NCBI GenBank assembly: GCA_019637915.1
Contig: JAHBUV010000001.1
Location: 1,148,565-1,212,564 of the forward strand
Source of the DNA: Pseudobdellovibrionaceae bacterium
Lineage (GTDB): Bacteria; Bdellovibrionota; Bdellovibrionia; Bdellovibrionales; Bdellovibrionaceae
Length of the DNA: 64,000 bases
Reading direction: 5' to 3'
In this document: positions 33,604 to 34,916 of the stretch, piece after piece
How the letters are laid out: the number at the start of each line of letters is the position of its first letter
How positions within the stretch are numbered: the stretch's first letter is position 1
Translations under genes and position numbers: made by a program
The notes under the pieces: model-generated
Database searches by the model: none
Told to the model about the DNA's origin: nothing
What the model saw: the letters and a program-made list of their open reading frames with translations, nothing else

Positions 33604-34039
33604 TGGCACCTCGACGAACATTGTGGTCCGGGCGTCGGAATTTTGTCGAGCTTCCTCGACGAATGATGTGCCGTGAGAGCGGGAAACCGCCTTCAAGACG
33701 CGACCTCCGACGAGAAGTTGTGGCGAAAAAACAAAACCCGCCCACAGTCCTGTCAAGAAGCCGACTCAACTCCCGATCAGCTTCGTGAGTGATGAGAGTG
33801 AACGGCGAAGGCTTTCCTGTCATCAGCGATTTTCACAGGGATTCAGGAAGATCCGGAGAGTGAAAGGTCACACTCTCCCAACGAAGAAAGGGGGGCCCTC
33901 AAGGATGAAATAACGGAACACTGATTGTTCTGAAGACTCGCGTCTCTTGTGACGGCGAGTGAAGCCCAAACAAAAAAACAATCGGCTCGGAAGCCGGCCC
34001 CAAAACAACGGATTGGGGGACTTTACAAGGAGGATTTTC
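33604..34039 (+). other. Long flagellin upstream region
   Basis: About 430 nt without a convincing gene on either strand. On the plus strand a hairpin of ACTCGCGTC with GACGGCGAGT (one bulge) lies at 33936-33960. A purine-rich stretch (GAAGAAAGGGGGG) lies near 33880, and a CTCAAGGATG motif at 33896-33905. No clear sigma-28 or sigma-54 box was found, although the flagellin gene must be expressed from here. The left part overlaps the upstream ORF extension of the small membrane gene. Confidence 0.4.
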
Positions 34040-34057
34040 ATGGAACTTAAAACTTAA
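34040..34057 (+). CDS. Five-codon leader ORF before flagellin
   Basis: ATG-GAA-CTT-AAA-ACT-TAA (MELKT, stop) is preceded by a perfect AAGGAGGA with 6-nt spacing. It ends 25 nt before the flagellin ATG. The segment around its start (GGAGGATTTTCATGG) resembles the flagellin start (GGAGGATTACAATGG), so it may be a duplicated translation-initiation region. It could regulate flagellin translation or be a relic. Confidence 0.45.
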   Translation: MELKT

Positions 34058-34082
34058 ATTTGTATCTTAACGGAGGATTACA

Positions 34083-34916
34083 ATGGGAATGAGAGTTACG
34101 ACCAACATCGCCGCCATCAACGCGCAACGCAACTTGATCGGCAGTCAACGTGTCATGAACAAGTCGATGGCCCAATTGGCCAGCGGTTCACGCATCAACA
34201 TCGCCGCTGACGACGCCGCCGGCCTCGCCATCAGCGAAAAGCTGAAAGCGTCCATCCGCTCCGGCGCGCAAGCTCAGCGCAACGCCAACGACGGTATCTC
34301 GATGGTTCAAACCGCCGAAGGCGGCCTGAACGAAATCGGCAACATCGTCACCCGTCTCCGCGAACTGGGCATCCAGGCCGCGTCCGACACGGTCGGTGAT
34401 GTGGAGCGCGGTTTCCTGAACAAGGAAGTCGAGCAGCTGAAGAACGAGATCCAGCGGATCGCCAAGGTCACGACCTGGGGTGAGACGAAATTGCTCGATG
34501 GTTCGACCCCGGTGTTCGACTTCCAAGTCGGTCTCTACAACAACGGTGAAGAGGATCGCATCAGCTTCGACTCGTCCGTGAACGTCGCCACCCTGGACGC
34601 TCTGGGCCTGGGTTCCTTGGACTACACCAACAAAGAAGGCGCCCAAGAAGCGCTGGGCCTGTTGGATGCCGCCCAAACGAACGTCAACGGCATGCGCGCC
34701 AACCTCGGTGCCCTCCAAAACCGTCTGACCTCCACGGTCGACAACTTGGGTGTGGCTCAGGAGAACATGAGCGCCGCCAACAGCCGGATCCGTGACACCG
34801 ACGTGGCCCAAGCCTCTTCGGAGATGACCCGCAACAGCATCCTGCTGCAAGCCGGTACCTCCACTTTGGCTCAAGCCAACCAGTCGAACCAATTGGCCTT
34901 GAAACTGATCGGTTGA
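34083..34916 (+). CDS. fliC: Flagellin
   Basis: Filament subunit, 277 residues, of the short type with little or no variable D2/D3 region. The N-terminal D0/D1 region is MGMRVTTNIAAINAQRNL, then NKSMAQLASGSRINIAADDAAGLAISEKL. The C-terminal part reads ENMSAANSRIRDTDVAQASSEMTRNSILLQAGTSTLAQANQSNQLALKLIG. The export chaperone FliS and the FlgL-type junction use these ends. The ATG at 34083 has CGGAGG upstream, and a short leader ORF precedes it. A strong terminator follows, so it is monocistronic. No other flagellar gene lies nearby, as is usual for scattered flagellin copies. Confidence 0.96.
   Translation: MGMRVTTNIAAINAQRNLIGSQRVMNKSMAQLASGSRINIAADDAAGLAISEKLKASIRSGAQAQRNANDGISMVQTAEGGLNEIGNIVTRLRELGIQAASDTVGDVERGFLNKEVEQLKNEIQRIAKVTTWGETKLLDGSTPVFDFQVGLYNNGEEDRISFDSSVNVATLDALGLGSLDYTNKEGAQEALGLLDAAQTNVNGMRANLGALQNRLTSTVDNLGVAQENMSAANSRIRDTDVAQASSEMTRNSILLQAGTSTLAQANQSNQLALKLIG

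Follow-up and report, generated by a model that had tools for sequence, protein, structure and literature searches.

Why should a five-codon open reading frame (ORF) with a Shine-Dalgarno (SD) sequence of its own stand directly before a flagellin gene? This arrangement occurs in a 64,000-nt stretch of a Pseudobdellovibrionaceae genome (the window), and a preliminary description had placed the ORF, MELKT-stop, behind an ideal SD and 25 nt before flagellin. Both the coordinates and the distance are right: the start codon of the mini-ORF follows its SD (SD1) after a 6-nt spacer, and the gap from its stop to the flagellin ATG at 34083 is 25 nt (Table 1). The mini-ORF frame differs from the flagellin frame, with an ATG-to-ATG distance of 43 nt. 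The gene is one of seven flagellin paralogs in this 3.3-Mb genome; an eighth, weak flagellin match is flgL.

Table 1. Flagellin leader and gene, in window positions.
Feature	Position	Strand	Basis
FliA (sigma28)-type promoter, TGTCAAG...CCCGATCA	33751..33779	+	kept in orthologous leaders
Hairpin HA, GGAUU[CAGGAA]GAUCC, GGA in loop; weak	33839..33854	+	leader comparison
Hairpin HB, GGAGAGUG-AAAGGUCA-CACUCUCC	33855..33878	+	RNAalifold consensus
Conserved block GAAAGGAGGGCCUUC-AAGGAUGA; relatives have two more GGA sites here	33886..33908	+	leader comparison
Hairpin HF, CGGCU[CGGA]AGCCG, putative CsrA site	33983..33996	+	covariation; in minimum free energy (MFE) fold
Hairpin HG, GCCCC...GGGGG	33997..34019	+	MFE fold; C-rich/G-rich arms in many relatives
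SD1, SD of mini-ORF, AAGGAGG; GGA within	34027..34033	+	sequence, leader comparison
Mini-ORF MELKT-stop, ATG GAA CTT AAA ACT TAA	34040..34057	+	start, SD and stop kept in 32/40 genera
SD2, SD of flagellin, ACGGAGGA	34070..34077	+	leader comparison
Flagellin (FliC), 277 aa	34083..34916	+	flagellin identity confirmed

Conservation of the mini-ORF

For each relative (classed as Bdellovibrionaceae or Bdellovibrionales), we took the sequence upstream of the closest flagellin and applied one mini-ORF rule uniformly to the 90 nt before the gene. Among the resulting 57 leaders from 40 genera and ten families, 47 have an ORF of 3-9 codons with its own SD, compared to 1.5 expected from dinucleotide shuffles, a count favoured by the substitution, in a few genomes, of a second flagellin copy where the best one had a different leader type. 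Based on this excess in the leader sequences, the mini-ORF before flagellin is not due to chance. With a single leader per genus, it is found in 31 of 40 (P ~1e-42 under the shuffle null, which is not a phylogenetic test and which, by assuming independent leaders, overstates the certainty). Because the P values treat leaders in this way, the argument against chance rests on the breadth over genera and families: at least one mini-ORF leader occurs in 32 of the 40 genera. The check proposed in the preliminary description, conservation of start, SD and stop in relatives, thus came out in favour of a conserved ORF, and the loss of these elements that it had named as counter-evidence was not what we found.

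Within this genome, we sampled 283 SD-bearing genes from 400 kb plus the window, with gene starts set by a simple rule. Three matches were obtained, namely the window flagellin and two ORFs overlapping the gene start by 4 nt, which are probably alternative starts; a non-overlapping mini-ORF was absent from the other 282 SD-bearing genes sampled. Among the relatives, the mini-ORF is missing from 10 of the 57 leaders, including three of the four in one family (f6), and in one of these ten (L134), MNINGG-stop follows an SD too weak for the rule.

The features kept across relatives are the start codon, SD1, a length of 3-9 codons (mostly 5-6), AT-rich codons and a stop that precedes the flagellin start by 1-33 nt, usually by no more than 30 nt. 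The second codon is AAN in 32 of the 47 mini-ORFs, and such an AA-starting codon is consistent with efficient initiation. The peptide, by contrast, varies freely between genera (MELKT, MKNKY, MIKTN, MKDLKNITF, MNLIN, MKINGG and others). MELKT is common only to two members of one genus, which encode its leucine by CTT (window) and TTA.

Two arrangements can be distinguished. In one, the ORF ends before SD2, leaving a gap of 12-33 nt, while in the other, the frame passes through SD2 and ends 1-5 nt from the flagellin start. Nine leaders of the order show the latter, as do a paralog of the same genome (L004) and L071, L079, L081, L092 and L093 (mostly Bacteriovoracaceae). SD2 is then mostly read as GGA-GGA-stop, giving Gly-Gly-stop peptides such as MHIKGG, MKINGG, MTTNGG and MNIQGG and, in Bacteriovoracaceae and similar, MVLTGG, MVITGG, MKLTGG, MNLTGG and MTGG; two g5 members read SD2 as Thr-Glu-Asp or Thr-Glu-Glu. 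The paralog L004 (G000:C1:2224975) has MQGG-stop, of the Gly-Gly-stop class, 3 nt before its start. Another type of flagellin paralog, present in several Bdellovibrionales (L054-L070), has its own leader with a GTAGGT motif and GGA hairpins, without a mini-ORF and often with a GGAGGTCCC-like SD.

The resemblance between the two initiation regions in the window had been attributed to a local duplication. Across relatives, SD1 lies in the context ACAAGGAGG and SD2 in TTAACGGAGGA; since these contexts are separate, old and conserved and share little beyond the SD itself, a duplication, whether local or recent, is unsupported.

A structured leader and its putative CsrA-type sites

The larger object was missed by the preliminary description: judged from the aligned sequences, a FliA-type promoter is followed by a structured leader of ~295 nt, which has hairpins with GGA in the loop and whose 3' end is formed by the mini-ORF. 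In orthologous leaders this promoter reads TGTCAAG...CCCGAT, and we call it FliA-type because it is conserved and resembles the attack-phase FliA motif TTAAG-N16-CCGATA, derived experimentally in Bdellovibrio bacteriovorus (PMC3627812). Transcription of the window leader would start near 33786-33788.

Hairpin HB covaries, with 25 cells changed on both sides and a score that exceeds 500/500 column shuffles as well as every slid control. The HF stem covaries as well and has a GGA in every loop (15 cells with changes on both sides and a score that 0/500 shuffles attain), in an alignment of 25 sequences hand-picked for a six-base loop and excluding pentaloops (CGCA-AUGGA-UGCG), so that the test leans towards structure. 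In many relatives the stem of HA differs and its GGA is retained (GGUUG AAGGAA CAACC, GGCUG AUGGAA CAGCC); HA is not part of the MFE fold of the window leader, and in genus g6 the GGA lies outside the loop. In total, 28 leaders contain 48 hairpins with GGA in the loop, whereas 200 shuffles averaged 14.8 and did not exceed 28. The block at 33886 has lost its first GGA site in the window, where it reads GGGGGG. A candidate second upstream ORF at this place (~33900-33914, an SD-like stretch followed by GGATGAAATAA, MK-stop) was rejected because relatives retain the GGA but not the ATG (GGATGA, GGAAGA or GGACGA).

The targets of CsrA are GGA motifs located at SDs and in the loops of hairpins (PMC4894983), and the GGA-loop hairpins of the leader are putative CsrA-type sites. 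The window leader has the combination typical of hag and flaA, a GGA in a hairpin loop (HF) plus a GGA at SD2. As in the Hag-FliW-CsrA system of Bacillus subtilis (PMC6529632), the flagellin homeostasis genes csrA and fliW lie together directly after flgK-flgL in this genome; csrA is present in 59 and fliW in 58 of 60 relatives. Levels of FliW (Bd0543) go up in late growth of B. bacteriovorus (PMC12546842). Both genes are also present in the genomes of the ten leaders without a mini-ORF, showing that the mini-ORF is not essential to CsrA-FliW control.

By a covariance model of its 5' part, the leader is specific to a single flagellin: 30 of 60 genomes contain exactly one match each, including the 21 leaders from which the model was built and which match by construction, and the copies adjoin a flagellin wherever coordinates were compared. 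The Rfam 15 covariance models gave no gathering-score match in the leader, and only chance matches at E values up to 5. We tentatively suggest, with slightly less than middling confidence, that the leader is an undescribed RNA family, ~200-330 nt long in Bdellovibrionales and represented in Bacteriovoracaceae by a related mini-ORF form, in which an array of CsrA-type GGA hairpins is combined with a peptide-independent upstream ORF (uORF) and CsrA-FliW would set flagellin output via access to that uORF.

Possible function of the mini-ORF

The reading that we favour, and to which we give roughly even credence, is that the mini-ORF is a peptide-independent uORF for translational coupling to flagellin under CsrA-FliW control. 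Because its position is conserved and its peptide is not, the mini-ORF probably governs the access of ribosomes to flagellin and likely that of the regulator CsrA as well. Starting from the conserved anatomy, the promoter type, the covarying hairpins, the invariant GGA and the presence of csrA-fliW in the genome, we envisage that ribosomes would load at the strong SD1, translate the 3-9 codons and terminate close to SD2. The distance left to the flagellin start is mostly 12-33 nt, and 1-5 nt in those leaders whose mini-ORF continues through SD2. The terminating ribosomes could then restart at flagellin, and those still translating would keep the SD2 region clear of structure and repressor. Upon accumulation of flagellin, CsrA bound to the upstream GGA hairpins and to the GGA of both SDs would block SD1 and SD2, for which binding to SD1 together with either HF or SD2 would be enough; FliW, freed once flagellin is exported, would take CsrA off again.

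The conserved placement of the stop favours a hand-over of the terminating ribosome or clearing of SD2, and in the Gly-Gly-stop class translation of the mini-ORF would end with the ribosome directly on the flagellin start codon. On the other side, the window has a gap of 25 nt and no overlapping stop and start, which counts against coupling. SD2 has a mean unpaired probability of 0.59 in predicted folds and so does not seem strongly sequestered; this weakens the unfolding form of coupling, which the structure does not require, and leaves reinitiation unaffected. Strict sequestration of SD2 finds no support in the predicted folds. In some relatives, SD2 lies within the loop of a weak A-U hairpin.

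Several other explanations have to be weighed. Ribosomes loaded at SD1 might do no more than shield or insulate the leader from nucleases (or Rho), stabilising a very abundant mRNA while flagellin starts independently at SD2. The strong SD, the AA-rich second codon, the independence of the peptide, the AT-rich spacer and the strong SD of flagellin itself would all fit, but we consider such protection rather unlikely, as it needs no stop close before the flagellin start, let alone one at 1-5 nt as in the Gly-Gly-stop class. A decoy or brake, in which ribosomes captured at SD1 and terminating nearby lower or delay flagellin initiation and keep output from saturating, perhaps adding a homeostatic limit to that set by CsrA-FliW, seems to us decidedly unlikely. 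SD1 and SD2, both strong, are ~43 nt apart in the window, and ribosomes there would be near enough to interfere; however, a brake would be costly before a gene needed in great amount, and the short stop-start gaps favour hand-over.

Could SD1 merely be a CsrA site, with the following ATG and stop incidental in AT-rich sequence? SD1 does contain GGA and the rest of the leader is rich in GGA hairpins, yet this is very improbable given a second null, in which SD1 and SD2 were kept fixed and only the intervening stretch was shuffled: 28 of 30 leaders, compared to 4.5 expected, have an ATG at 3-9 nt from SD1 and reach an in-frame stop ahead of flagellin, and the remaining two have TTG instead of ATG. 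Moreover, another GGA block of the leader (HD) retains its GGA but not an ATG. The preliminary description had proposed that the ORF pre-loads ribosomes, couples flagellin translation or responds to stalling. The former two fit the SD, start and stop conserved across genera. A stalling sensor, responding to the nascent peptide or to specific codons like an attenuator leader peptide, would be expected just upstream of a regulated gene, where the mini-ORF indeed sits, but we regard it as barely credible because neither peptide nor codon identity is conserved between genera, MELKT being confined to two members of one genus.

Relation to known systems and to B. bacteriovorus

The common explanations for bacterial uORFs are a stalling peptide or an overlap with the following gene. 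The present uORF has persisted throughout an order without peptide constraint, before flagellin and beside CsrA-type sites; if the RNA-family reading is true, it would be a conserved uORF selected only for start, SD, length and stop position. The leader architecture of B. subtilis hag is different, and we know of no leader ORF in hag. Our literature search, which covered few subscription journals, found no paper on a Bdellovibrio flagellin leader ORF and none treating CsrA in Bdellovibrio as its subject.

By analogy, we propose that the flagellin mini-ORF may work like Escherichia coli iraD and Campylobacter jejuni flaA combined. In the iraD leader, CsrA represses a short uORF (ORF27) that has its own SD directly before the gene, and coupling, proposed here, was demonstrated there; of several upstream CsrA sites one overlaps the uORF SD, to which the putative GGA sites of the present leader correspond (PMC5574718). 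Unlike here, the iraD uORF stop overlaps the start codon (the window leaves 25 nt between the two, and relatives leave 1-33 nt) and the SD of the gene is sequestered, which is not clearly so for SD2; moreover, the present uORF precedes a flagellin and has been retained throughout an order whose members do not share its peptide. With flaA, the present leader shares a Sigma28-dependent flagellin mRNA, the presence of csrA-fliW, GGA in hairpin loops with compensatory changes and one GGA at the ribosome-binding site (PMC4894983). The flaA leader, however, is 45 nt long with two stem-loops, compared to ~295 nt with several hairpins, a uORF and putative CsrA sites here, and the terms 'upstream ORF' and 'short ORF' are absent from the text of that paper. 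Salmonella mgtQ is likewise a very short ORF just upstream of a gene whose translation it promotes, as proposed here, but it needs ribosome-destabilising acidic codons (PMC8092293), whereas peptide content is free in the flagellin mini-ORF.

The coordinates of one genome (G036) match B. bacteriovorus HD100: its c-di-GMP-I riboswitch has the coordinates and strand published for merRNA. The G036 flagellins at 2960612 and 3255361 (minus strand) are preceded by MKNKY-stop and MVMTK-stop, respectively, and from their position in the gene order (PMC2791853) we infer that they are fliC5 (Bd3052, a major filament component) and fliC6 (Bd3342). A direct test in a tractable predator is therefore possible with MKNKY-stop before fliC5. 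If our reading is right, it would help to explain how the predator times flagellin synthesis at release from prey, and CsrA would join a regulatory scheme described so far via FliA and c-di-GMP.

Three published small RNAs of B. bacteriovorus deserve mention. APsRNA3 (L179, G036:C1:561500-566000; 561854-561981) is followed after 149 nt by a flagellin ORF (start 562130) in the same orientation, has a FliA-type promoter in front of it, and looks like the leader of that gene and not a free-standing sRNA gene. APsRNA1 (L183, G036:C1:499200-499800; 499375-499581), ~4.6 kb before csrA, has the GGA-loop hairpins ACACAUGGACGUGU, GAUCACGGAGUGAUC and GUGCAGGAUGCAC and could, from these motifs, be a CsrA-sponge RNA; to our knowledge it has not yet been named as such. 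APsRNA2 (L184, G036:C1:535000-535500; 535188-535321) has a strong SD and a five-codon ORF near its 5' end (AAGGAGGUGAUGCUUAUGGUUAAAAACGUAG, MVKNV-stop), a design that resembles the flagellin mini-ORF.
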